Part shown: positions 8,421-63,430 of the stretch, one piece after another
Layout: every line of letters starts with the position of its first letter
How positions within the stretch are numbered: the stretch's first letter is position 1
Source: Diphasiastrum complanatum
Lineage: Eukaryota; Streptophyta; Lycopodiopsida; Lycopodiales; Lycopodiaceae
Reading direction: 5' to 3'
NCBI GenBank assembly: GCA_029204225.1
Contig: CM055107.1
Span: 45,849,165-45,913,164 of the forward strand
Length of the DNA stretch: 64,000 nt
The notes under the pieces: generated by a model
Told to the model about the DNA's origin: nothing
The model's database searches: none
The model's input: the letters and a program-made list of their open reading frames with translations, nothing else
Program-made: the position numbers and the translations under genes

Positions 8421-10628
8421 CTGACTCATCGATCCATCAATTGGTTCTGTTATTACAAATGATCTAAACATGGTGCTCTTAATTCACTAAGTGTTCCACA
8501 TCACTAACTGACAATTTGACAGTGTTTCTCGACACTCTGAACTGTCGGCGACTTTGCACCTCACAAAATGGCAACATTACTACGATCTCATGATTAGTCA
8601 ATTAAAATCAATGCAGTAAGAATATCATAACACCATTGATGTGCAACATTCCATTCAAACAATCCATCTAAATGGAGAAAATTATTCAATGGCACATTTA
8701 AAGTTATGAAATTTCAAATGAACCACCTAATAACAAGTCTATTATGTGGTCTCTTGTGAATAGATTTTGATATGATATTAAGTTTCACATTTTACATATA
8801 TGTAAAATGTGAACAGTGGCAAACTCTTGGTTGTATTTCACGCTACAGCTCTAAAATTTTCTACTCTTGTCATAAGATTATATTGGTTCGCAACAATACA
8901 TCAATCAAGTTCCAATGAGCTACCACACACAACACAATATGTACTATCAATTATTTTCTCATCCTCGCTAATGGCACCAAATTAAATGTAGTACATGTCA
9001 TGGCTCATCGAATCCTAAATGAAGAGTTTTAACTAAAATATATAGGATATCATTCCTCAAAAAGAGGAATTGGTAAGAATAGTATGGTATCAAAACAATT
9101 GTGTAGCAAAATAAATAATAATCTAGGCAGAAATGGATGTTCAGTTAAGGTAGCCAAGACTATCATTAAAACGAATATTAGCATCATCAATAGATATACA
9201 AATATTCATCTGATCGTGTTGCCGTTATGAAAAAATACCAGTACCTCAATTTCAGATCTACTACTTGCAGCTAACTTTTAATAAAATCATAAGTAATTTT
9301 GATTTGTTACAATAAACATGCCAAATCGTAACAGCACATGCTTTCCAAAAATATGCCACAACTTGGATGAATTTATGTTTGTAACCAATGCATTTTTATA
9401 CAAATCACAAACTTTCCATAAAGTAATGAAATGACGATATTCAGAGAGCATGCAACATACAACCAACTCAGAGAGGTCTTACTTGCACATACTAACCATC
9501 TAGAATTATTTATTATGTCCTTTCTTTTATTTGTGTTGAAACTCTAGCATCTTAAATCACCTCAATGTCTAGCATCCTAACTAAACAGATTTGTATAAAT
9601 AATGTTCAACTGAAATATGAAAAACAATAATAAAAACTTAACATATTTCAACTTTCACGTCTTTCATATAAAGAAATTATGTACTTGTTAGGGGCCAAAA
9701 TTATCTCTTTATTGTTACAAGTTTGTTGAAAAAATACATAATATTAAGCAAGAAATATAGACAAGGTAGGTTAAATAAAGGGCAACAAAAGGAGAGAAAT
9801 TGTATTGAAATATCACTGCTTAATAACACATGTACAAGAAAATGATCCACAAAGATGGCTAAAACAAGACCTGAAGCAATTCAATAAAAATGACCTGAAA
9901 GTTTACACATATTACTCATACTGTACGCCACTTAAAAGTTTACATATCGTTAGAACTCAAAATAGCATTCAATTACTCAACTCAAATGACACAACTTTGA
10001 CGAGGAAGAGATTGTGAAATATCCATAAGCAAAACAAATTTTAATCGTCCTTCAAAGCTAAACAATATAATCTATTCTAACCTCTGAAAATTAGGCTGAT
10101 TCTATGTCTATAAGCTACGATCATCTTTGTGACATTCTCTAAGCTTGACATAAACAATACTTATGTCATCAGCAGGATGGTTTAGCGCACCCACATGGGG
10201 CTTTTACGAAAGAGAGTTTAGACCTGCCTAGATCATACTCAAAATGATAATTGTTTTGCATGAGACTGCCAATTATGGAAACGCCTTCACCATATTTCAT
10301 GGCCAGGCAAAGCAAATTCTCATTACGTATGAAATAGTTGTCTGGAGGGGGGTTAAACTCTGCATTTATCAAATGAAAGGTGAGACTCGGAATGGTATAT
10401 CTACCCAACCGCCCTTCTACGTTATAACAAAGCTCAAACTCGGTACCGGATGGCGCATCTGCAAGTGGGAGTGTGATTGCAGCCTTCAATTCGTCTCGAA
10501 TGATAAAATAAGCAGAACCTGCGAAAGAGGTAAAAGTGCTGCCTGAATCTATGACCGCCATTCCACCTGGCAGATTGACTCCCAGTCGTTTTCCACCAAC
10601 GCTGAATGCATTAACACCAACGTAATAC
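8421..10628 (+). repeat. Inverted duplication, arm A
   Basis: This stretch is repeated in reverse orientation at 12,853-14,988 with small substitutions and indels. It covers about 1.75 kb of 3' flank and the 3' part of the protease gene. Outside the protease sequence the arm has no long open frame; the short frame at 9,805-10,017 is identical in both arms, which indicates low divergence there. Confidence 0.9.
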
Positions 10629-12852: not shown

Positions 12853-13256
12853 CATTACGTTGGTGTTAATGCATTCAACGTTGGTGGAAATCGACGACTG
12901 GGAGTCAATCTGCGTATTTTATCATTCGAGACGAATTGAAGGCTGCAATCACACTCGCACTTGCAGATGCGCCATCCGGTACCGAGTTTGAGCTTTGTTA
13001 TAACGTAGAAGAGCGGTTGGGTAGATAAACCATTCCGAGTCTCACCTTTCATTTCATAGATGTCTACTTTAACCCCCCTCCAGAGAACTATTTCATATGT
13101 AATGAGAATTTGCTTTGCCTGGCCATGAAATATGGTGAAGGAGTTTCCATAATTGGCAGTCTCATGCACAACAATTATCATTTTGAGTATGATCTAGGCA
13201 AGTCTAAACTCTCTTTCATACAAGCCCCATGTGGGTGCGCTAAACCATCATGCTGA
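12853..13256 (+). pseudogene. Broken 3' copy of the aspartic protease
   Basis: Plus-strand copy of the last third of the protease, from YYVGVNAF to CAKPSC and the same stop at 13,254-13,256. About 60 bp are missing near 12,915, removing the second catalytic motif (DSGS), and a stop occurs near 13,026 where the parent reads RYTIP. There is no N-terminal half, signal peptide or first catalytic Asp, so it is a pseudogene fragment made by the inverted duplication. Confidence 0.9.
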
Positions 13257-14988
13257 TGACATAAGTATTGTTTATGTCAAGCTTAGAGAATGTCACAAAG
13301 ATGATCGTAGCTTATAGACATAAAATCAGCCTACTTTTTAAAGGTTAGAATAGATTATATTGTTTGGCTTTGGAGGACGATTAAAATTTGTTTTGCTTAT
13401 GGATATTTCACAATCTCTTCCTCGTCAAAGTTGTGTCATTTGAGTTGAGTAATTGAATGCTATTTTGAGTTCTAACGATATGTAAACTTTTAAGTGGCGT
13501 ACAGTATGAGTAATATGTGTAAACTTTCAGGTCATTTTTATTGAATTGCTTCAGGTCTTGTTTTAGCCATCTTTGTGGATCATTTTCTTGTACATGTGTT
13601 ATTAAGCAGTGATATTTCAATACAATTTCTCTCCTTTTGTTGCCCTTTATTTAACCTACCTTGTCTATATTTCTTGCTTAATATTATGTATTTTTTCAAC
13701 AAACTTGTAACAATAAAGAGATAATTTTGGCCCCTAACAAGTACATAATTTCTTTATATGAAAGACGTGAAAGTTGAAATATGTTAGTTTTTATTATTGT
13801 TTTTCATATTTCAGTTGAACAGTACTGTTTAGTTAGGATGCTAGACATTGCGATGATTTAAGATGCTAGAGTTTCAACACAAATAAAAGAAAGGACATAA
13901 TAAATGATTCTAGATGGTTAGTATGTGCAGGTAAGACCTCTCTAAGTTGGTTGTATGTTGCATGCTCTCTGAATATCGTCATTTCATTGCTTTATAAAAA
14001 GTTTGTGATTTGTACAAAAAAGCATTGGTTACAAACATAAATTCGTCCAAGTTGTGGCATATTTTTGGAAAGCATGTGCCGTTACGATTTGGCATGTTTA
14101 TTGTAACAAATTAAATTACTTATGATTTTATTAAAAGTTAGCTGCAAGAAGTAGATCTGAAATTGAGGTACTGGTATTTTATCATAACGGCAACATGATC
14201 AGATGAATATTTGTATATCTATTGATGATGCTCATATTCATTTTAATGATAGTCTTGGCTACCTTAACTGAACATCCATTTCTGCCTAGATTATTATTTA
14301 TTTTGCTACACAATTGTTTTGATACCATACTATTCTTACCAATTCCTCTTTTTGAGGAATGACATCCTATATATTTTAGTTAAACCTCTTCATTTAGGAT
14401 TCGATGAGCCATGACATGTACTACATTTAATTTGGTGCCATTAGCGAGGATGAGAAAATAATTGATAGTACATATTGTGTTGTGTGTGGTAGCTCATTGG
14501 AACTTGATTGATGTATTGTTGCGAACCAATATAATCTTATGACAAGAGTAGAAAATTTTAGAGCTGTAGCGTGAAATACAACCAAGAGTTTGTCACTGTT
14601 CACATTTTGAATATATGTAACATGTGAAACTTTATATCATATCAAAATGTATTCACAAGAAACCACATAGTATACTTGTGATTAGGTGGTTTATTTGAAA
14701 TGTCAGAACTTTAAATGTGTCATTGAATAATTTTCTTCATGTGGATGGATTGTTTGAATGGAATGTTGCACATCTATGGTGTTATGATGTTCTTATTGCA
14801 TTGATTTTGATTGACTAATTGTGAGATCATAGTAATGTTGCCATTCTATGAGGTGCGAAGTGGCTGATAGTTCGGATTGTCAAGAAACACTGTCAAATTG
14901 TTAGTTACTGATGTGGAAGACTTGGTGAATTAAGAGCACCATGTTTAGATCATCTATAACAACAGGACCAATTGATTGATCGATGAGT
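12853..14988 (-). repeat. Inverted duplication, arm B
   Basis: Reverse-orientation partner of 8,421-10,628. The inner edge falls inside the protease coding sequence at the codons for YYVGVNAF; the outer edge is near actcatcgatca at 14,970-14,988. Differences are mostly single-base substitutions plus a roughly 60-bp deletion in the protease part. Confidence 0.9.
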
Positions 14989-15148: not shown

Positions 15149-16190
15149 ATGGCACCATCAAGGAAACCATGCTCCTCAATAGACTACGTGGTTCTCTTCA
15201 ATGAGAAAAATGACAATGAATTATGGGTGCCAAAAAAGTATTCAAAAAACTCTTGGGTTTGCTGCGTCCATCATCAAAAGGAAAATTTTGAAAAAGCAAG
15301 AAGACAAAACTATCATTTCGATCTTATTGGAAGGCCAGAATTATGGATTTCAAAACATCATCAGGAGAAAAATCTATATCTGAAATATTAGTTCAACATG
15401 TGTGACGCATTCAGATTTAAATGTGCAAGGACTGAATTGTCATGATCACAAAAAAAGCAACTGTGAGTATTGATATATTATTTGCACTTATATTTCTCCC
15501 ATTCTAGATCATTTATTTCTAAAGTGTTAATCTGATCACTTTTCTATTACAGATTTATATCCTTCCAATATAATTAAATGGGAACCATCGGGGTGTTTTG
15601 CAAGTGTGAATTGGATGTACTACATGCTGATATTGGACAATTGCAATATAGAGGTAGAACTCCAAAGGAACTTGTTGGTTGTGGAATCTTTTTCTATAAA
15701 TTGATTTAAAAGGGGGTTTTGGAAAAATCTAGACCATTCCACTACCTAGTTTTAGAAGTGATGAATGGGTTACTCCTTATGCCTCAACTTAAGAATCATT
15801 TCGATGTAAAGTGTATAATGACATAAAAAATCCATTAAAGATAACCACATGCTCAAAAACAGTCCGATTAAATTGGTTTTTTTCTTTTAATATGAGCTAC
15901 ATTAGGCCAAAACTATTTCTCTGACAATATGATATACCCACATATTTCAGATTCATTTCCATTGGTAAACTAGTAAGTAATTATAAACATTTTTATTCTT
16001 CTTTAATAACTTATATCAACAATCATCCATATGCTATATGCTTTTCTTGATGCAACACAATTTGTTTCAATTTTTTGCAAGTACGTAACAGACACAAGCT
16101 TGAGATCAAATGTGGAAATATTGGCAAAACTATTCAAATATTGAATAAACACTAAAATTTAGTATCAAAAAAATAAAATTCCATCATCAT
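15149..16190 (+). pseudogene. Element X ORF1 (copy X3), unknown function
   Basis: The first exon is open from the ATG at 15,149 to about 15,391. Its residues NDNELWVPKKYSKNSWV align with SNEHWVPHTFSTFDWV of X1 ORF1, and the later DLIGRPELW with HWKGRIHEF. Downstream exons are broken by stops, but the last two are recognisable: the RFISIGKL coding block with a gtaagt donor near 15,970, and the following block coding HKLEIKCGNI near 16,090, ending at about 16,160. I do not recognise the family. Confidence 0.6.
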
Positions 16191-34790: not shown

Positions 34791-34827
34791 CATTAGGGCC
34801 CTTTTTGGACTCAAAAACGGCCTCTTC
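34791..34827 (+). repeat. Left terminal inverted repeat of X1
   Basis: Starts CATTAGGGCCC and ends GGCCTCTTC. It matches the reverse complement of 43,300-43,336 at 36 of 37 positions; weaker homology continues inward for about 40 more bases (ataattag and acgtgt blocks). The repeat is itself partly self-complementary. Confidence 0.75.
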
Positions 34828-35093
34828 ACTAATTATAATTAGTGTTAATGACGACACGTGTCCCAATAGAATATTGACAACTGAGAGGGAATGGTCCATA
34901 TGACATGGCAAATTCAATGGTGCAGATTAAATCAAGTGTGGGCCCACAAAGTACACCTCCTACATTAACCCTAGATAAAGCAATAACTATGCCTACAAGT
35001 TAACATCAACTAGCCTGTCTATCTACTAGCAGCCTTATCCTAAGTGAGCCTAGTCCTTATTTCAAATTTTGAATGTTCACAAGCTTGTATCTC

Positions 35094-35096
<3 letters not shown>

Positions 35097-35144
<48 letters not shown>
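35097..35144. repeat. (CT)n microsatellite in the ORF1 leader
   Basis: About 48 bp of CT/TC upstream of the ORF1 ATG at 35,250, within its probable 5' untranslated region. Confidence 0.95.
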
Positions 35145-35147
<3 letters not shown>

Positions 35148-35249
35148 CTGTATACTCCACAGATATTCTATTTTTTTTATTTTGGTTCACCTTATCTGAA
35201 GATCTACACACTATTTCGCATATCCTACATTATCATTACATCATCCATT

Positions 35250-36610
35250 ATGGCCTCTACTCAATCAAGAAAGCCCAAGAATCAACTAGCTTCCATTGTT
35301 GCACACATCAAAGATTCCAATGAGCATTGGGTGCCCCATACATTTTCAACTTTTGACTGGGTTTACATGCAACCATCGGGCAAAGGAACTCACAAGGTTG
35401 CAAAGAGGAAACGAAACAACCAAGACTACCATTGGAAAGGAAGGATCCACGAATTCAAGATCGACCAAAACGGCGAATACCTTGCAAATGTGCAACACAT
35501 ATACATGCGTCGAGATATTTTATTGGATGTGGCTGTTGCTGATAGAACCATACAGTCACATTGTAGGTCTCACCTCTTTTATTCTTGTGTTAAATATTAT
35601 GTTTGAATTATTATTATGTCATTGTAATGGATAATAATGTTGCATTAATGCCAGGTGCAGATGTCTTTCCTTCAAATAGCTTCGACTGGCAAAACGTGAA
35701 GTCCTTCACTGGAAAATTCTCCGCCATACATGCCAAATATGGAGAACTAATATATGGTGGGCTGGCATCCTCTGCCCTGATCAAAATGGGCATTTTCTTT
35801 TATGATCACATGTACAAAGTTCCAAAAAAAAAACTTTGGCCAAGGCAAATTAGCACCAACTTCTGAGCCTGCGATCAATTCTCACGAGTGGCCATATGTT
35901 GACCAACTGACTATTGAATTAACGAAGAGGCAACTTCTCAAAGAGATTATTGGTAATATGAAGCCAACATTCGGATCCAAACGAGTCTACACTAGCATCT
36001 CTGTGCCGATCACTGTATTTGTTGCCATATTTAAGGCGGTCCCCTTTAGGAAAACAAACACAATGTGGGCATGGAAAGCAACAGAATCATCACTGTTGGA
36101 CAACATATTTGTCGCATGGGATTCAAAGGAAATGGAGCATAAAGGAGATTTAATAAGGTGTAAGCTCTCTTGTGAAACAATGACCATAAGGTATCATATT
36201 TCACGTCAAACATGCTCCTTAAGTTTCATTTATAGGCGATATAAGTTTGGTCATGGCCGATGGGACCCTCTGGACGCGGAGACGAATCAGCAAGAAGTGG
36301 AGATATCCATACATTTGCCCCATGATGAAATACGAGAAATTCATATAAATAAGGAGTGCAGCCTAGAAGATCTTCGGCATATGCTTGGATTGACTTTTGT
36401 TGATGTGCCAGTAGATTTTGTCTTCACTCGTAATGGACAAAATGTGAGTCCCTAATTTCCATCAGATTCCTGAATTTTGAATAGTAATGTTGAATAAATA
36501 TATGATTATTAACTTTGTGTCTAGTTTTGCAGATACGGAGACGAGCCGAAAAAGATCATGAATGTGTTTCGTTTTTACAAATAGGGACATTAGGAGTCCA
36601 ATGGGAATAA
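35250..36610 (+). pseudogene. Element X ORF1 (copy X1), three exons, unknown function
   Basis: Predicted exons are 35,250-35,562, 35,655-36,443 and 36,533-36,610, with GT-AG introns whose phases agree. An A-run near 35,824-35,832 has shifted by one base, breaking exon 2. The frame upstream of 35,250 is only CT repeat, so that ATG is chosen. The N-terminal exon has HWVPHTFSTFDWVYMQP and HWKGRIHEFKIDQNGEY, which faintly recalls a BAH-type chromatin domain. The C-terminus (VEISIHLPHDEIREIHI, CSLEDLRHML, DFVFTRNGQN) has the spacing of a ubiquitin-like fold. Neither assignment is firm. X2 and X3 keep the same last intron. I do not recognise the family. Confidence 0.6.
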
Positions 36611-36844
36611 AGGATTTAATCTAATGAAAAATAGAAAACACAATTAGTTGGTTGTGTTTTGACTCTATTCTAATATATTTGGTTACGTTTTGACATTACT
36701 TTTGCGTTGTTATATTTTATATGCCTGTTACTACATTTGTGGATGTCCAAGGATTTTTACTCATGAGCCTAGACAAGAACATACTATATTTGGAAAAGAG
36801 GCCAAAACTTTTATAGGGGCACTTACTAAAAATAGAACCCTTCA

Positions 36845-36853
36845 CTATATAAG
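36845..36853 (+). promoter_or_regulatory. TATA box of the X1 histone H3-like gene
   Basis: CTATATAAG lies about 130 bases upstream of the ATG at 36,980, giving a leader of about 100 bases. Confidence 0.6.
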
Positions 36854-36979
36854 GATGCTTGGGTCCTCATTTCTCCACTTCATCCCTTGAGTGTCAGAGT
36901 GTCAATTTTTTTAAATTCTCTATTTTTCATCTCTCGTGTTCTCTGATACGTTTTCAAAGGCTAACCAATGTCGGAGGAA

Positions 36980-38191
36980 ATGGCACGGACAAAACAAACG
37001 GCTAGAGATCCCAGAGTGACTGCATTGCTCCATAGGGATGCACTAGCCACCCTCGATGAGAGAGAGAGACGGGAGAGCAGAAGCAGGAGTAGGAGTCGCA
37101 GCCCTATAGCATCTCAGGAAGATCCGGCCACTCAGCGTGAAGCTGAGGAGGACATGGCCCATACAGCAGCTGCACATGAGGACCAGACTGAGCAGCAGCA
37201 TCAAGAAGACCAGCAGCAGCAGGACCACCACCAATAGTAGCAGCAGCAGCCAACATGAGAAAAAAGCCCTTCCCCGACGGCAACTGACCGGGAGGAAACA
37301 ATAAAGCTCCTAGATGAGGAGCTTGCGGCATCGGGTGAGTTGCCGGTTCTAAATGATTCTTTCTTCGACCCATTCCCACCAGCAATGGGCATGGACACAT
37401 CAAATTTAGACATATCGGGGGACACCACACCCACCGTGTCACCTCCAAGTCACGGCCCGGTGATGGGTCCGATAATGTCGTTGCTGGTGGGTGGTTCTGA
37501 TGAGGGCACCCCGATGTCGACCACAACAAGGATGAAGCAGAAGGCGACCCATAGATGGTCAGAGAGAGGAGCACACGAGCGAAAAAGAAATAATCCTCGC
37601 AAGGCTGGGTCTACATCAAAGCGACGGAACCCTGCAGCTCGGGAGCCATCACCACTGCCCACACCGCCAACATTGCCTCCACCGCCTCCACCTCCTCCAC
37701 CTCCACCGCCTCCGCCCCCACCGCCTCCACCGCCTCCACCGCCACCTCCACCACCTCCACCACCACCACCGCCTCCAAGTTCTACCGCAGCTGGCCCAAG
37801 TAGGACCGTAGAGCATCGCAGGGATAGGCCGGCCCCTCGTGCAGCACCATGGGCTGGAAAGGAGCTCCGTAGGATGCAGCCACCACCTCCTCGACCGCGT
37901 AGGAAGTGCAAGATCGCTAAGTGGCTCCAGGATATACAGAGCTATCAGAAGTCTGTAAAATTTTTGATCCCTAGGGCCCCTTTTGTGAGGCTTGTAAAAA
38001 AAATAGTCGATGAATTTTCCTTGGGAAACAGAGTTACGGCAGATGCGGTGTCCGCAATACAAGAGTCTGTGGAAATGTACCTAACGCAGCTCTTTGAGGA
38101 CTCATTTTTGTGTACAGTGCACGGGAAGAGAGTCACAATACTCCTGAAAGATCTCCACCTAGCTAGAAGGCTAAGGAGAGAGCGGAATTAA
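36980..38191 (+). pseudogene. Histone H3-like protein with long N-terminal tail (X1)
   Basis: One continuous frame of 403 codons with three in-frame stops (codons 86, 87 and 93). Residues after Met are ARTKQTAR, identical to the first eight of canonical H3, then DP in place of KS, so K9 is absent. The tail continues with an SRSRSRSRSP stretch, Gln/His runs, a polyproline tract (about residues 233-267) and basic patches. Residues about 314-403 form an H3 histone fold: YQKSVKFLIPRAPFVRLV, AVSAIQESVEMYLTQLFED, CTVHGKRVTILLKDLHLAR, ending RRLRRERN. Loop 1 has canonical H3 length, not the longer CENH3 form, although LIP in place of LIR is CENH3-like. The ATG at 36,980 is preferred over one four codons upstream because of its better context (gaaATGG). 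The stops read as CAG-to-TAG twice and CGA-to-TGA once. No intron is needed. Confidence 0.88.
37676..37780 (+). repeat. CCN trinucleotide repeat (polyproline)
   Basis: About 35 consecutive CCA/CCT/CCG/CCC codons encoding polyproline in the tail of the H3-like protein. On the other strand it produces long Gly/Trp/Arg artefact frames. Confidence 0.9.
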
Positions 38192-38422
38192 AAATATCAT
38201 GTACATGATTTTATTTATAATATATAGAAGATTTGGTGTCAAGTATCTTGCAGAATTTCAGGTTGTGTGAATGCAGATTGTTGTGATTGAGTTTGATATC
38301 TGATTTCAACTGTTTATGTTAATGTAGTCATTTGAAAATTTTAGTATCATTTATGTGAATGCAGTGATTTAAAATTTTTCAGTACTATGGGAATGGTAGT
38401 TTCCATGTCGTGGCATGGAAAT

Positions 38423-38487
38423 CACGCCAGGGCACGACCAGGGAACGTTTGACCTGGTCAAACGGGCGCTGGTCGCGCCCTGGCGTG
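38423..38487. terminator. Nested palindrome between convergent genes
   Basis: Outer arms 38,423-38,441 and 38,469-38,487 are reverse complements with one mismatch (CACGCCAGGGC...). Inside, 38,446-38,454 and 38,456-38,464 form a perfect 9-bp palindrome around one base (CGTTTGACC-T-GGTCAAACG), containing inverted TTGACC W-box cores. It lies 230 bp beyond the H3-like stop and 140 bp before the opposing ORF-S stop. A role in 3' end formation is a guess; it could equally be a small foldback insertion. Confidence 0.45.
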
Positions 38488-38628
38488 AAAATCACGTCAC
38501 GTAAAAAAAGGAGGAGAAATCTTTATCAGAAAAAAAAATTAAATTCTAAATTCAATAAATTAGCACATCATATAAAGACAACTAAGAATTAGGAGAGTCC
38601 ACAAGAAAAAAACGGACAAAATTTTTAT

Positions 38629-40077
38629 TCACATTTGATCCATTTCCTTCAGAGAGGACTTCAGCTTCTCTGATCGCTTCTCTGATGATAGTACTGGTTT
38701 TAACATTTCTAATGCTAATTTAGGAGCATCTCCCTCATCCTCATAAGGGCCAATTAAACCCGAGAGAATGAGCCGAGTCTCGAATCTAGGGCAAAAATCA
38801 TTCAAAACGGCTTTTCGGAGGACACAATAAGCCTTTGGCGCTGACGGTGACATGTCCAGCTCACCAATGTGCTTGGAGAGTGCTTTGCATTTAAGAAGCT
38901 CTGTCTTGTTGCTGAAGTAGAAAATAAAGTTGTTGGGCAAGTTCCCAATGTAGTGGGCCATAGACCTGTCCAGAGTTCCTGCTTCAACTTTCTCCCGAGA
39001 CCCTTCGCATTGCAAATGCATCAAGCTCCACTGCATCCTACATTTGGTTCAAATTATTGCAAAATGAGTATAATGAAGACAAACAAACATAACAAACACA
39101 TGCAAGTTGAATTGTTGGGTCAGACTTGCCTCGGTGCCTTCATCAATATCTTCGGTTTGCGCAAGGTTAATTCCTTTGCCTTTGTACTTCACGTCAGCAG
39201 TTTTCCCTTCGAGTACCTCGAATGGCCTCGTTTGAACTGGTGGTGGTTGAAGCGTTTTCAATTGGCAAAGCACCCTTGCCAGTGCTTGCTCGGTGGTGTC
39301 CGTGTCATGCCCGATCAGCTTCTCATACGTGTCATCGGGTTGGGTGTGGTTGAAAGTGGAACTGCCATTCTGCAAATTTACCAATGCTGCCAGCATCTCA
39401 TCTTCTCGCAAGCCGAGAATATGTTGCAAGTCATGCATGAACACATACTCCTGCCCATCAATGATGATTGGAGCAAGGCCATGGATTCAAAGCACGACAT
39501 CATCGGACTCATCTGTATCTTCTGGCTCCGCTGATGTGGATGCACCTGTTGCCTCTTGCGCAGCCAAGATTGCTTCGTGCTCCGCAGATAAATCTTCCTC
39601 TTCACCCGGGTCGTTCATCTCGTTCACCTGCTCACTAGGATTGTGTTTGTTGCTGGCCACAGTCGCTGGAAACTCATTAAGCAAAAAAATAACAGTAATC
39701 TCACCAGATAGAAACTTCTTTCCTACACTTTCAAGATCAAAAGTTTTCAGCTGGTCCTTCGTCAGCTCCAAGTAATGATCGTTACCCAAGTGACTAATAA
39801 ATCTGTTGAGACGAGCGATAAAGGGTCTATCTCCTTTCCATATATAACTAAGCAAGTTATATGAAATCCACATGATAGTTGAGCCAGGAATTTGTATGGC
39901 ATAAGGCTTCAAAGCTTTATCTATATACTCACTCACGTACGTGAACGCATCCGCATTAGCCCGTAGAGCGGCAAGTGTGTCTATTCTACCGGTAAACATA
40001 CAATAAATACGATCTAATTGATCTAAAAACTCTGTGGGGGCTAGCAGATTGCCCAACTCTATTTTAGGGGACGACAT
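38629..40077 (-). pseudogene. Element X ORF-S (copy X1), unknown function
   Basis: Starts MSSPKIELGNLLAPTEF at the ATG at 40,077 and runs in one frame to about 39,110 except for a TGA at 39,487 (CGA to TGA), and then a second block reads IGNLPNNFIFYF and KAYCVLRKAVLNDFCPRFET down to the stop at 38,629. An intron probably separates the blocks near 39,040-39,125. The first block is a helical globular segment followed by an acidic region (NDPGEEEDLSAEHE, EPEDTDESDD). The piece ARLNRFISHL...VIFLLNEFP resembles AKLDRMFTKL...FIFFLLLNIS in X2 (62,020-62,524). No known family is recognised. Confidence 0.55.
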
Positions 40078-40333
40078 TGTTATGCAACTAAGAACACTAA
40101 TTGACCAGCAAACTAGTAGTCTAATTGAACAAGACAAGCTAAATTACGAGGAAACAAATTTCAACAAAGCAAGAAGTGACAACAAAATGAAAACCCCCAC
40201 TCTTATATAGAGGGACGTGTATCTAGAAATAGATATTATTATAAAACTAAATAAAATAATTTCTATTTATAACAACAATCCAATTTATTTATCACAAAGG
40301 AATATTCGAATTACAATTCAGCATAAATTGTTT

Positions 40334-42998
40334 CTATTCCATCTCATCAGTTTTCGTAGTTTCTCTAGCACTGTTTTCCAAAACATTGGATGTTGGTGTC
40401 CTCGGCATCCATCTCTTTCCAACTCGGACTCTAGACATCCTCCATTCTTGATGCCTTGTTCTAGCATTAGAGGACTGCCATGCTGTCTTTCTGACTGAAT
40501 TTGAATTGGAGATCATTGAACACAACTCTTCAGTTCTTGTATTTTGAAAGTGTCCTCGGCCCAAAACACCTCTGTAAAACCATTGGAATATCTCAACCAA
40601 TGCATTGCTAAGACCCTTTCTTCCGCCATGCCGTGAATTTTTGAAATACGCAGCCTTTGCCCTATAATGGCTCTTTTCCATGCCTTGCGTATTCCAAATA
40701 GCTAATGATCCATAGGTTTTCATAAACCAAGGTCCATGAGCATAGAAGATGTGTTGTTCATAGAAAATTTGTATTAGTTTAAATCTTTACAAATACATAA
40801 ATATGAAAGTAAAAAATATGAGACACACATATCATATAGTGAGTTATGTGTGTTTCTCCCCATGCATCGATCATCATTCAGTAAATGTTTTGACTTCTCT
40901 TGCGTATCTATCCAAATCTTCATCTCTCACAATCTTTTTGTTGATAGTTTGTGACAAGGCATCAAATGCTTGCCAAACCTTAGCACGTGTACTTGTCATG
41001 CGAGGATCTGAGCCAATATTTGTTGTGCACATTCAACATTGCTTTCACGTGCAGTATGATTTGACAATAGGTGTCTCGCTTTCGCACCACCCATTGAAAC
41101 TTTTGCTGGAACATCTTGCGTTTTTCCACTCATCTCAACGTCTTTGGTAAGACTCACGTGGCCCCCGTGCAATCCCATATCGGATAAAATTATCTCTAGA
41201 TTTCTAATGCTAACATCTGCTCTTGATTTGGGCTGCATGTTCCATGCGTAACAACAATGCAAAAATAATAATTTGTCCAGTATTCGTAATTCACCATGCA
41301 TTGTGCAAAAATGGACTCTTTCGAGAGGAATGTTCAACACAGGACTCCAAGCTTTGTCTAGATTGTGCCTATTTGGTGGAAGACGTTGGTTGCAATTCAA
41401 AATATTTTTGTTTCGCCTAGATTCAAACATACAATATATACAAAAATTCTTTGCATTTGCACCGAGACCACAACCGTACATGCATTTCAAAGTCTTCAAA
41501 TTAGTAGCTAGGTGTCATTGTACAGCAAAGCTTTCTCCTTCAACATTGAGCAATTTGTCTTCATTTTGTGCATGTATTATCTTAGATATACTGCATTTTT
41601 TAAATAGCCACTCCAGTACGTCGTGAGACTCCTTAGGAACTTCAAATGCAGCTATCCACCATATGTGATTTTCGGATTGCACGCTAAATTCTTTACAATA
41701 ACTTCCGCCAAACTGTTGCAATTCACGATTCATCAAGGTGATTGTGACACGTTCAAGTTTATGCCCTTTTATGATTTCTGCTTCGTCCAACTTAATAACA
41801 AATATAACTTTACCTTCGCAATCTGTAAAACAAAAATTTCATTACTAAAACATATTAGTTGAAGAAAAGCATACAATTGAAAACTGAAATTCACAATAAA
41901 TGTTTTTACCATTTGTTCTACTTTGTGATGTCGGATCATCATCGCTTGGACCTTTTCCAGATCTAAGAATATATTATTGCCTTGATGATAACGAAAACAT
42001 GTCGGAGGTCCTTTCTTCTTATTGGTTACTGTAAAAAAATCCTCAATATGTTGAAACTCTCCTAATTCAAAGAGCAATATCGAATTGCATTCTCGTTTGG
42101 CAGTTTCGACAAGTTTATAAGTAGGTATTATTTGATGGCGTTTTAACCCATTTTTGTCAGAGCGTTTCATATACTTCTTCAAAGCTCTATACCCCTTGCG
42201 ACTCACACCTCCTTGGTCACATGCGTACACCATCTCTTTAACATTTGGATTTGGCTTGAACTTGTCGACTAGCTTTTTTGCAATTCTCAAGCAAATTGAA
42301 TCACTTGTTTCATCTTCCACAATCTTAATCAAATCTTTACCCTTCAAAAAATGTTTCATATATTTTTCGGCAATAAAATCTTTTCCAACCGTCTTTTTCA
42401 AGAACTCTTTTGTGTCCCTCATACGTCTTTTACTGGCACCACCACCTGGTGCCAAAGCTTCTAGCTTGTGTCTCTTAGTGTTTTCATTTTCTGCTTGTTG
42501 ATCCATCAAGACTCTACGCTTTCGTTGTAAGCAATATATTGTCCTCTGAAATATACTGATTGAAGATTGCAATTCTTCAATTTTTGTGACAGAACTGGCA
42601 AGCTCTATTTTCAAACCATTTATCTCCTGTTCCAATTTCATATTTATTCCATGCAATGACTTTAAATTGTCATTCATACTCAATATATGAATGTTTGCCG
42701 TATTTGCCAATGTCTCAGCTTGAATTCTTCGAGAATCCATTGCTTGACAATAGCCAAGCAGTCCATTCCGACCATCCCCAACGAACCTTAACAAACTATG
42801 TACATCAGAAAATTTAGGAGGAGCATCTACCAGTGGATTATGAGGGTATAAATCACCTCTTACCCATAGGTCAATATGTTTTTTTCCTTCTAATCTCCAA
42901 CAATGCATGTCATACGGATTTAAGTTAACACCCCATGCAGCTTTGGTGGTCGCATAATCCTTCTCTAACTTTACATGTAAGTGATACTTGGTTGTCAT
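40334..42998 (-). pseudogene. Putative transposase-like gene of element X (X1)
   Basis: A multi-exon minus-strand gene begins at the ATG at 42,998. The first exon (about 360 codons) has a coiled coil near residues 95-165, a Lys/Arg-rich patch ASKRRMRDTKEFLKK, and VSRKGYRALKKYM with a TYKLVETAKREC block. An intron with GT-AG ends spans about 41,830-41,910. Later exons contain ENHIWWIAAFEVP, a Cys cluster CMYGCGLGANAKNFCIYC, the block FCTMHGELRILDKLL, and, after a one-base frame break near 41,010 and another intron, GMEKSHYRAKAAYFKNSRHGG and IFQWFYRGV. From memory this block order recalls unnamed transposase-like proteins of animal and fungal mobile elements; I cannot name the superfamily. Its terminal position and inward orientation fit a transposase. 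Confidence 0.5.
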
Positions 42999-43299
42999 CT
43001 TGAAGATGTCGAATTTCCCTAAGCTTTATTAGGCATATACTAGTTTTCATCCCTAGGGTCCTATTGTAGTTAGGACAATGAAAGGTCGTCCTATACTAAC
43101 CCTACTCTAGTTGTAATTTGTAACTTACCTATTAGTTGCCTATTATAGTCTATGCAAATAACCTACAATAGTCTATGAAAATGAGACCTACATTTAGGCC
43201 TTAACTCTTGCTCACCTTGTATGGTAACCCAAGGTAAAGGTGCCACGTAGGATTGATTAGCACTAAATTAATTATGATTAGAAAACCTGTTTAGGCAAG

Positions 43300-43336
43300 G
43301 AAGAGGCCCTTTTTGAGTCCAAAAAGGGCCCTAATG
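43300..43336 (-). repeat. Right terminal inverted repeat of X1
   Basis: Reverse complement of 34,791-34,827 with one mismatch. The transposase-like gene starts about 300 bp inside it. Confidence 0.75.
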
Positions 43337-43719
43337 TATTCACCACTTGCTAATGCTCTTGATTGTGTTGTCTATTTGCTTTCTATTTTGATGTTATTTG
43401 TTTGCCATAGTGAATGCTTTTCCATTAGCAAGCATAAGGAGCATTTAAGCTAACCTCCACCCTCACTCTCTATCTCTCTCTCTTTCTCTCTTCTCTTCTC
43501 AACCTCTTCCTTTCTAACCCTTCCCTTCACCCAAATCAAGATGAATGCTAGTGTAGAGGAGTAGAATTAAAGAGGAGTAGTATAGTGGTGAGTAGAGCTA
43601 AGGGAGAAAGTAGGAAACTAACTAAAAGTAGCATCTATGCTTAGTTAGGTACCTATCTAGTGATCTAAGCTTTGTTGACAGGCGGAAGGGCTATAGTACG
43701 AGAGATCTTTGACCCTACA
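43337..43719 (+). repeat. 5' LTR of gypsy F, right piece
   Basis: Runs from the X1 inverted repeat to gaccctaca, immediately before the primer site. It contains tctatttgctttctattt, comparable to tatttgctttccattt in the LTR-like repeat at 17,870, and a CT-rich stretch at 43,467-43,505. With the left piece the LTR would be about 825 bp, TG...CA. Confidence 0.6.
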
Positions 43720-59035: not shown

Positions 59036-61120
59036 CTATTCAGTCAATTTTTCTACATTTTCTTTATCAATATTAGAAACTGATAAGGGAACAGCTCCTT
59101 CTATAATCTCGCCTTCCTCTGTTTCGGGAAGGGCCTCTATGCCTTTTAAGACAAGAGGACTCTCTGCTATAATATCGCCTTCCTCTGTATTAGGAATGAC
59201 TTCTATTCCTTTTTTATCATATATAATAAGATCTGCATCTTGAGCAATCTGAAAGGCTGTTAAGGCAGGAGCAGCCTGCTTTTGAGGGCCCTCGATCTCA
59301 GGTGCAACGCTTACACCATTTTGTACATAAGTTCTGATCAACTGTTGTCGAAATCTATATACATCGTCAAATATATACGGCTCAAGAGTGAACTGTCATC
59401 ACAAAACACGAGAATCAGCAAATTACAAACAATGATAGTAAAGAAATAAAAATCAAAATGAAAGGAACTACAAATGAACAGAATATTATCTTTTCAATAT
59501 CTACATCCACTTGTAAATTATACCACTCAAAAAATAGCTTCGTATTGTACAAGACGAACCATGCACAACTAAAAGTGAACCTTTGTTGTACACACTACAT
59601 ATATTGAACGAAAATTAATAATGTTATGACAGAAAATTTATTTATGCTATATGATAGATTTAAACTAAAACGAATACATGCATATCAGAGATAAATTGAA
59701 TATACATTGAGAGATCTAATAGTTATCTCTCCAATTAAGGTTGTTGTTGTCGGTATTTCCCGAACGACATCATGAAGTAGATAATCAAATTTTCTATGTT
59801 TATTTACAGTTGAGTTTAATTTTACACATAGAAAATTTGATACTCCCTCTTTACAGAAATAATATTCAGGCTCCAATGCCGACTGCAACAACCAAGATAC
59901 AAATATCGATAAATCTATACTTATTAAAGCAATCCTTACTAATTAAAGCAATTCTGCATGCAACAATCCAGATTAAAGAAACAAAAACAAAAGAGCAATC
60001 TTTATTTATTTTCATATGGAATCAAATAAAATTTCGCCATTGGACTGTATTCAATAAAATATACAGCCTTCTCAAAAGCGGCTTCCTTTGTTTTTATCGC
60101 TCCCATAAAAAATGGACTAACAACAAAAACTATACCATGGGAATTGGAACTATGTTGCAAAAAGGATCTTCCAGCTTTTACTATTACATCTGTAATTTTT
60201 GATTTTTTATCTTTCAACTCGGCACAAAATTTGGGACCTAGTCTAAAGCTTTTACGTGAATCTGGAAGAAAAAAATCAAAATAATTGCCAAAAAGATCAA
60301 TTTTATTAGCTAGGTAGGCCTCGTACTGGTTATAATGGTCACAATCAAAATAAACTTGGACAGAATTGTATGGAATTTTGACAAAAAAATTATGTACAAG
60401 AGCAGAAAGAGAAGTAGATATAATATTTACATATTTCTCTGTTATTTTGTCGAGCTCCTCTTGGGTAATCAACACTTTTGGTGAAGAAACCTGTTGAGGA
60501 GCTGGACAAATAACAGGAGGAGGGGGTGATGATTCTTGGTCTGAATCAGATTCTCCAACATCTGACTCAGAGCTTAGGACGATCCAGGATCTCTTGGCAG
60601 GGATAACTCTTGGAGGAAGGGAAGCAGCTGGCCTTCGAGATCCAACTTTCTTGGGGACAAGCTATTTCCTTTTTCTTCTAGAGGTAGTCGGCAAGTTGGT
60701 TCTATCCAGAGGCAGATCTTTGGAGGTGCTGGCGTTATCAACATGCAAACTAGAAAAACGGTCCCGAAGTCTTCTAAGAATGACGAAATCTTTTGGCATG
60801 GTGATGACATGCTTATCATGCACTGCCAAAAGACATGTATCCTCAAAAAAATGGGACAAAAAATCCTCTACAGCACCCTATAAGGCCTGCATGGCTGTCA
60901 CGACAAATCGAACATTTAGCCCAAGTGACAGAGTGACATTCCTGACAGATTGGCTAAAAGGAGGTCTAGGGATCAACAGTTCAGTTGATCTCTAGAGTTT
61001 TCTAATCTCCCTCAGCCAGACCTGCTTCCTACTACGTCTACGGTTTGTACCAAGGGGAACACGAGCATGGGATGGCTATACAGTGGTTATGGCACGGGTA
61101 ATGGATTTGGTCCTGGCCAT
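59036..61120 (-). pseudogene. Histone H3 fold fused to a long C-terminal extension (X2)
   Basis: From the ATG at 61,120 the protein begins MARTKSITRA (K4 kept, alanine at the K9 position), has a short basic tail (GTNRRRSRKQ), then an H3 fold at residues 36-121: WLREIRKL-stop-RSTELLIPRPPF, RFVVTAMQAL, FEDTCLLAVHDKHVITMPKD, RRLRDR. Loop 1 is canonical in length. The frame continues with RRKRK, an acidic patch ESDVGESDSDQES, polyproline, then an unknown globular region (ITQEELDKITEKYVNII, VQVYFDCDHYNQYEAYLANK) to 60,002. Further exons probably lie at 59,882-59,706 and 59,392-59,036, the latter with acidic repeats (PNTEEGDII, PETEEGEII). The four premature stops (codons 15, 43, 81, 153) are all TAG, each a CAG-to-TAG change where comparison is possible. 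The better ATG of two adjacent ones was chosen. Confidence 0.85.
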
Positions 61121-62019
61121 CATTCTCAAGAAAACTAAATTAAAAAATATAAAGTTTGAACAAAAGTGTAGGGAATGAAAACAAAAAAAATTGCGATCAG
61201 AGGGCCCTTGAGATCGATACCAGAACTGAATATCGGTTTTGAGCGCAAGATATACATAGAATATTTTCATAAACGAGATGCGCGTTCGAAAGCGATATTG
61301 GAATAACAACAATATCGGTCTCGAGCGCACTGTGAGAAGGCGAACGATGAAGCGGTGAGAGGGCGCGCTTGAGAGCGATATTGGGAGTGAAAACTGAAAT
61401 TTTTGCGAAAAAAAATAAAAATTTCGAGGACTTACATATACGAAATTTTTGCACACGTGAAAAACCGATCAATGACATGTGTCGTCATCTAACTGGTCCA
61501 CATGGAGTGTCCGTACTGACAATGATACTCAATTATGAGGCCACGTGGGTCGGGACACGTGCATGAATCATTTTTTGACACGTGTCATTTTGCACGTGAC
61601 AGATGTCAGATCAATCATTGTCTGTACGGCAGATTATTGCTGACCAATCATACGTCAATATGTGTCCTTTTGTAACTTCTCCACACATGCGATTTTTTTT
61701 TATAAATAGGTTATTTTCGACTCGAATTTTCACGCAAATTTTCGATTTCTTAGTCGAATATCGATCTCAAGCGCGCCCTTTGCACTGATTACCCTTCGTT
61801 GACTTACTTGTGCCTAGAACCGATACTGCCTTGTCCAATATCACATTCAAGTGCACCTTACATCTCATTTCTTTTCTGCTCTTTGTTCACGCGTTCGGAT
61901 CCGATACCCTAATTTCTAGTATCTCTTTCAAGCGCACATTGCCTTGAGGTTCTTGTCTGATCTGTAGTTTGCGTCTGAGAGCGATATTTGGAATTTTACA
62001 TCCGTAGTTTTTGTTTAAA
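61121..62019. promoter_or_regulatory. Divergent promoter region with repeated AATATCG-CTCAAGCGC motifs
   Basis: The 900 bp between two divergent genes carries a motif of the form AATATCGxTCTCAAGCGC in both orientations: near 61,205, 61,225, 61,280, 61,309, 61,363, then 61,754, 61,830, 61,915 and 61,973. The copies at 61,363 and 61,754 are close inverted repeats around the centre. A TATA box (TATAAATAG) for ORF-S lies at 61,701-61,709. The multiple sites suggest binding by an element-encoded or host factor. Confidence 0.55.
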
Positions 62020-62631: not shown

Positions 62632-62901
62632 CTATTGTCTATTGGCTTGCATAAATTTGCATGCTTTTTGAAATTTTTTATAATCTGTCGATTTTGTATT
62701 ATGACGAATTTGGATTCTTCTGTAAAACCATTGGAAGAGTTGCAATATATAGCTAAGTCTCGCCATGTTGTGTACTTTTATGAAATGCTGCTCTTGCTTG
62801 CCGATGAGATTTTTCCATTCCTTGCGATGACCATATGCTAAGACTTCCACTATTTCTTGCAAAAAATGTCGAATGATACTGTAATATGTGTTGCATGTCA
62901 T
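62632..62901 (-). pseudogene. Transposase-like tail of element X (X2)
   Basis: Minus-strand reading EVLAYGHRKEWKNLIGKQ, then HNMARLSYILQLFQWFYRRI. This aligns over about 45 residues with GSLAIWNTQGMEKSHYRAK and the ALVEIFQWFYRGV block of the X1 transposase-like gene. Upstream exons are not found to the right. Confidence 0.5.
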
Positions 62902-63430
62902 AAAAACATAATCTAAATCAGTATCAAAAGCAACATAACATTCAACTGAAGCATTGGAAATCCTACAAAGTGCTTGTCACAACTATCACTCAATAGTTGT
63001 AAGAAGAACTCCTCAGGTAGCCAGAAATCGGAAAACATCAGAATTGAGTGAAATGGTGGATCAGTTTCCAAGTCCTACACATCTACCTGATACTAAACCC
63101 AAACCAATCCTTAAAAGAGAATTAACAACAATCACATTCATACATCAGTACTCGAACTAAATGCATGAAGATGGAGCATGGAACAGAATGCAGTTTGAAG
63201 GATCTTCATTAAAAATTTCAGCAATATTACAATACACAACACATGCTATAGATAGGCCTCTATCTGTATCCATGAGCTGGTGAACCCAATTTTATCATAT
63301 TTTGGATTCCACCCTTACAACTAAGTGAACCCCATTCTTTAAAGATTTGGATTCCACCTCTTACTTGATAATAGAGGCCTCTTTATTAAAAAACATAACT
63401 CAAGTTGAGATAGTCTAAATTGCTAGCTCC
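62902..63430. other. No gene recognised
   Basis: AT-rich sequence with one 68-codon frame (62,954-63,160) of no recognisable family. It contains two near copies of gattccaccctta/gattccacctctta around 63,300-63,365. It may include the lost right end of X2. Confidence 0.4.

Follow-up and report, generated by a model that had tools for sequence, protein, structure and literature searches.

The window analyzed here is a 64,000-nucleotide stretch of the Diphasiastrum complanatum genome (GenBank assembly GCA_029204225.1, contig CM055107.1, positions 45,849,165 to 45,913,164), and all coordinates below are positions within it. It contained an 8.5-kb unit (34791-43336), here called element A, whose terminal inverted repeats (TIRs) enclosed a gene for a histone H3-like protein and a gene for a transposase. 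Four genes were found between the TIRs, in the order open reading frame B (ORF-B) (+), H3-like gene (+), ORF-C (-), and a large spliced transposase gene (-). The features that bear on the H3-like gene were as follows.

34791..34827, unstranded: left TIR of element A, 97% complementary to 43300-43336 over 37 nt
36980..38191, + strand: H3-like gene of element A, 403 codons, interrupted by three in-frame stops (37235-37258); tail MARTKQTARD
37925..38188, + strand: H3 histone fold of element A, 45/87 residues identical to H3.1, PDB E value of 9.2e-24
40337..42998, - strand: spliced transposase gene of element A, broken by a frameshift and one in-frame stop; splice site and pieces identified
43300..43336, unstranded: right TIR of element A, 36/37 nt paired with the left repeat

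An earlier interpretation made from the letters of the window (the sequence-only reading) had placed a 403-codon frame with the N-terminus ARTKQTAR at 36980-38191, and the frame was found exactly there, on the + strand and starting MARTKQTAR. As a correction, TAG codons at 37235 and 37238 and a TGA codon at 37256 meant that the frame was not open. Because three in-frame stops interrupted the frame, this copy of the H3-like gene is a pseudogene. The claim of a complete C-terminal H3 fold was borne out. Specifically, the open C-terminal part of the frame (37340-38188) matched the Pfam Histone model (PF00125) at profile positions 20-122 of 122 with an E value of 3.2e-27, which ruled out a chance frame, and the last 97 residues of the protein matched solved H3 chains in the PDB with a best E value of 9.2e-24. 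These matches indicated a fold with H3-type helices and an H3-type C-terminus. The linker between tail and fold contained the SR stretch, Gln/His runs, basic blocks, and long polyproline run that had been described. The fold was 52% identical to H3.1, which, in line with the sequence-only reading, ruled out a recent copy of a host H3 gene; the accompanying statement that the protein had diverged at most positions was too strong, as the differences affected about half of the fold positions.

The inverted-repeat-bounded unit of the sequence-only reading also held up. With up to 3 mismatches allowed, a 22-nt core of the 37-nt TIRs had two occurrences in the window, one in each TIR, and none in 100 shuffles; element A therefore had the terminal inverted repeats of a TIR DNA transposon. 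As read from its ends, the element permitted at most a palindromic 2-bp target-site duplication (TA or AT).

A protein search with the element A transposase identified 18 relatives (E values of 3e-109 to 5e-85). At the candidate acidic catalytic positions, a KLDE motif was invariant in 19 of 19 sequences (the relatives and element A), and a QGMExSH motif was present in element A and in both of the relatives (2/18) that reached that region. The second Asp was present in 18/18 relatives, whereas element A carried an Asn. The spliced transposase gave no match to Pfam transposase models (hAT, MULE, Harbinger, EnSpm, and others) at E values up to 5, and the same models gave no match to relatives P0001, P0003, P0010, and P0017 at E values up to 0.5. 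For the transposase core, a RAG1/Transib-type fold was found in a structure model, which was that of relative P0001. We infer that the transposase is a DDE enzyme with a predicted RAG1/Transib-like fold. A scan for this transposase confirmed 0 of 56 stretches in viral contigs and yielded 0 of 264 in prokaryote genome contigs.

Near the end of the window, at a place here called locus B, a second H3-like gene was found together with another fragment from this transposase family.

60005..60661, - strand: extension that continues the locus B fold in frame at its C-terminal end; no Pfam, NCBIfam, or PDB match
60764..61120, - strand: tail (MARTKSITRA) and H3-like fold encoded at locus B; the frame continues to 60005 and has four in-frame stops in all
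61204..61988, unstranded: eight 18-nt copies of GCGCTTGAGANCGATATT (0.13 expected), lying in both orientations and with no more than 3 mismatches
62683..62908, - strand: transposase-family fragment of locus B, 51% to element A and 58% to P0001 (E value of 6.5e-13)

In tblastn searches of the window with the element A proteins, the H3-like gene of locus B was matched at 61042-60764 (-) with an E value of 3.5e-16 and the transposase fragment at 62908-62762 (-) with an E value of 7e-12; the best of 200 shuffled queries reached 0.008 and 0.044 in the H3-like and transposase searches, respectively. H3.1 itself matched locus B with a tblastn E value of 4.8e-20. Locus B spanned 60.0-62.9 kb, and its H3-like gene was about 1.6 kb from the transposase fragment. 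The two genes were convergent in element A and had the same direction in locus B. Since an H3-like gene lay near the same transposase family at a second locus, the pairing recurs. This recurrence, the 18 relatives of the transposase gene that lies inside the TIRs, and three dispersed clubmoss relatives of the H3-like gene supported the earlier proposal that the H3-like gene belongs to a transposon. Neither of the outcomes that the proposal had named against itself (i.e., no H3 profile match, or homologs found only as single-copy host genes without a transposase or TIRs) was observed. The C-terminal extension of locus B was Ser/Asp/Pro-rich and then passed into a folded-looking part. At locus B, the GCGCTTGAGANCGATATT copies separated the transposase fragment from the H3-like gene, just upstream of the latter, and are possibly transposase-binding or promoter repeats.

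The locus B fold was 48% identical to H3.1, and the folds of element A and locus B were identical to each other at 32 of 85 residues; in 4 of 80 columns, they differed from H3 yet agreed with each other. Two CENH3 sequences used for comparison were 48% and 51% identical to the element A fold and 45% and 44% identical to the locus B fold. Both folds shared an LLIP-like Pro with these CENH3 sequences yet had the shorter loop of H3. Based on the identity comparison with these two sequences, we consider it unlikely that the element A fold is simply CENH3. The residues that we take to make the H3-H3 contact (C110, H113, D123, L126, and R129) were, as read by eye, all kept in element A, and 3/5 were kept in locus B. 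In the tails, ARTK was kept in both proteins, and the place of lysine 9 was occupied by Asp in element A and by Ala in locus B. No ARKS motif was seen by eye in either protein. Because the tails had no canonical K9/K27 (ARKS) contexts, we refer to the proteins as H3-like and not as canonical H3.

Close relatives of the element A protein were recovered with a threshold E value of 0.001. Three of 20 candidates passed, all of them D. complanatum loci annotated as "hypothetical protein," located on three contigs and 79-88% identical to element A; an earlier protein search with the read-through frame had yielded 0 of 94 candidates at the same threshold. These loci were the only close H3-like relatives found and, taken on their own, make a clubmoss host likely. 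When element A and locus B were compared over 82 codons, the nonsynonymous divergence (dN) was 0.61 and the synonymous divergence (dS) was saturated and not computable. The past selection suggested by the sequence-only reading rests on a fold that was conserved over the long term in two copies, both of them broken.

These results make it very probable that element A has the anatomy of a TIR DNA transposon and that the H3-like gene is one of its accessory genes, and the recurrence of the pair suggests a standing accessory gene of the transposon lineage. The explanation of the whole that we prefer, and that we hold tentatively, is that element A is a dead representative of a TIR DNA transposon that had four genes and used its H3-like protein as an anti-silencing variant. 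Plants silence transposons through chemical marks on H3. The protein would pair with H4 and enter nucleosomes. Its tail keeps ARTK, and lysine 4 could bear an active mark; with neither lysine 9 nor ARKS in the tail, such nucleosomes would offer host H3K9-methylation silencing no substrate, and expression of the element would continue. Every step of this mechanism beyond the sequence is inferential, the tails of two pseudogenes are thin evidence, and we advance the anti-silencing step itself with considerable reserve.

Several observations weighed against this explanation. All of the copies that were read were broken, and the loss of K9 in two tails may reflect decay. An in-frame ATG at 36968, four codons upstream, could bury the ARTK end in element A. 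The tails of the three close relatives were unseen because the annotated start of each is an internal Met. Recent constraint was not detected among the four close A-type copies (element A and the three relatives, leaving out the last 7 columns, where the relative P0020 was shifted): 10 of 44 H3-identical columns were variable, compared with 11 of 36 other columns (p = 0.45). In the case of the transposase, the P0001 model was of modest confidence (predicted local distance difference test [pLDDT] score of 64.6), the putative catalytic Glu had a score under 50, sequence similarity to RAG1/Transib was not detected, and the C-terminal alignment columns were thin.

The negative test for recent constraint is also what would be expected if the gene were a passenger, that is, a host H3 or CENH3 gene captured by transduplication, with no role in transposition and now decaying. 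This explanation is a realistic one, which we rate a little below our own. The published fungal cases are read in this way in the parts of the report cited here (PMC6710886), and the 4/80 columns that differ from H3 and are shared by element A and locus B would fit separate captures, as would the position of the fold, which is C-terminal in element A, whereas a long extension comes after it in locus B. A decaying passenger accounts less well for two folds whose identity to H3 is still near 50% while the synonymous sites that separate them are saturated, for the H3-type N-terminus kept at both loci, and for a gene that adjoins the same transposase family twice.

The tails and the predicted fold of the transposase allow a further explanation, in which the H3-like protein serves for docking. 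The PHD finger of RAG2 reads H3K4me3. By analogy, the H3-like protein in nucleosomes might recruit the transposase complex through its ARTK end or its linker and so steer excision or insertion. The RAG1-like fold of the P0001 model, the ARTK kept in both tails, and the long low-complexity linker between tail and fold are in keeping with such a role. We nonetheless consider it unlikely, given that no PHD finger or other reader was found in ORF-B or in the first part of ORF-C and that the link to RAG1 is by fold only. That a decayed host H3-variant gene merely came to be surrounded by a transposon is very improbable: the window is full of nested repeats and a target duplication of >2 bp cannot be shown for element A, but each of the two H3-like loci in the window adjoins one of the two loci of this transposase family found there, and three further A-type loci are on different contigs.

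Our preferred explanation, an anti-silencing variant carried by a transposon, has partial parallels in known systems. In the parts of the reports cited here, the H3L-carrying hAT transposon of the fungus Pyrenophora tritici-repentis is 5.6 kb long, has nearly identical recent copies, and encodes a changed N-terminal tail, as does element A (PMC3538342); element A differs in its plant host, its transposase with a RAG1-like predicted fold and no Pfam transposase family, its length of 8.5 kb, its four genes, and its old, broken copies. Similarly, the hAT elements of Pseudocercospora fijiensis and its relatives contain H3 sequence within TIRs and were amplified and inactivated, as the passages cited describe; capture of a fungal host H3, inactivation by repeat-induced point mutation, and 8-bp target duplications are features of those elements (PMC6710886). 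Cargo of DNA transposons that would counter chromatin silencing is described for VANDAL/VANC in Arabidopsis (PMC5735166 and PMC10398659) and is discussed for TET/JBP-encoding fungal transposons (PMC12730594), again in the parts cited here. The likeness is in how the cargo would work: in those elements it is an anti-silencing protein or a dioxygenase that acts on marks, whereas in element A the cargo would be the histone substrate.

Element A resembles RAG1, Transib, and RAG1L elements in the predicted fold of relative P0001 and differs from them in the undetectable sequence similarity and in showing no 5-bp target duplication. In addition, its TIR does not start with CACWRTG, which we take to be the start of Transib/RAG TIRs.

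Among the literature matches listed for histone genes in transposons, the only cases that we recognized were fungal. The word "histone" did not occur in the text of a 2026 review on gene capture by plant transposons (PMC13317346; term search). The sequence-only reading had known of no well-described plant transposon family that encodes an H3; an H3-like gene in a transposon nevertheless has a precedent in the fungal hAT elements. Because of that precedent, the kind of element is known, and what is new is the plant host, the different transposase, and the K9-less tails. If the gene works, the transposon would oppose silencing through a change of substrate (the histone) and not through removal of the mark, unlike VANC or TET/JBP cargo, and plants would have a natural K9-less H3. 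A RAG1-fold transposase tied to an H3 tail would also be relevant to the question of how the reading of H3K4 by RAG-type enzymes arose. The most far-reaching version is doubtful. In it, a plant transposon lineage with a RAG1-like transposase encodes an H3 that keeps lysine 4 and has no lysine 9, and either its nucleosomes are unmarkable for silencing or its ARTK end is recognized by the transposase complex as H3K4me3 is by RAG2. Even as dead cargo, the gene shows that H3 was taken up by transposons outside fungi.

The remaining features of element A, and a fragment related to one of them (locus C), were as follows.

15149..15402, + strand: ORF-B-like fragment (locus C), E value of 2.3e-4; best of 200 shuffles, 0.018
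35250..36452, + strand: ORF-B, a frame-broken gene in several pieces (35250-35562, about 35655-35863, and 35781-36452)
38409..38501, unstranded: palindrome with 46-nt arms, 78% complementary and spaced by 1 nt, lying where the H3-like gene and ORF-C converge
38632..40077, - strand: ORF-C, a gene in pieces with an acidic stretch and an in-frame stop at 39487-39489

ORF-B had looked BAH-like by eye, an impression that was unsupported: there was no Pfam match above the curated cutoff, and the single PDB match was to a P450 with an E value of 0.85. The mean pLDDT of its structure model was 40. For ORF-C, the search covered the first part (39490-40137) and gave no Pfam match above the cutoff. The first part of the gene (39490-40077) ended in a strongly acidic stretch, like those of histone chaperones, a resemblance seen by eye only. 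The palindrome could fold as a hairpin in transcripts from either strand. A TATA-like CTATATAA at 36845 gave no evidence of a promoter, as 4 such sites were present in the window and 2.39 were expected.

The sequence-only reading had also placed element A inside a retrotransposon long terminal repeat (LTR). This was supported on the left, where the flank aligned to repeats at 17.7-18.2 kb (70-85%), and was weak on the right, where the repeats continued in the same order but, apart from CT-rich tracts, with an E value of 0.56 only. A motif near 43718 is presumably like a primer-binding site. The two flanks resemble parts of a single LTR with element A inserted between them, and nesting is supported but not proved.

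TAXi-type aspartic protease and copia genes were also present in the window and likewise speak for a plant host. An inverted duplication of about 2.1 kb (8424-10516 and 12909-14988) had 95% identity between its copies, the first of which overlapped the end of the TAXi-type aspartic protease frame.
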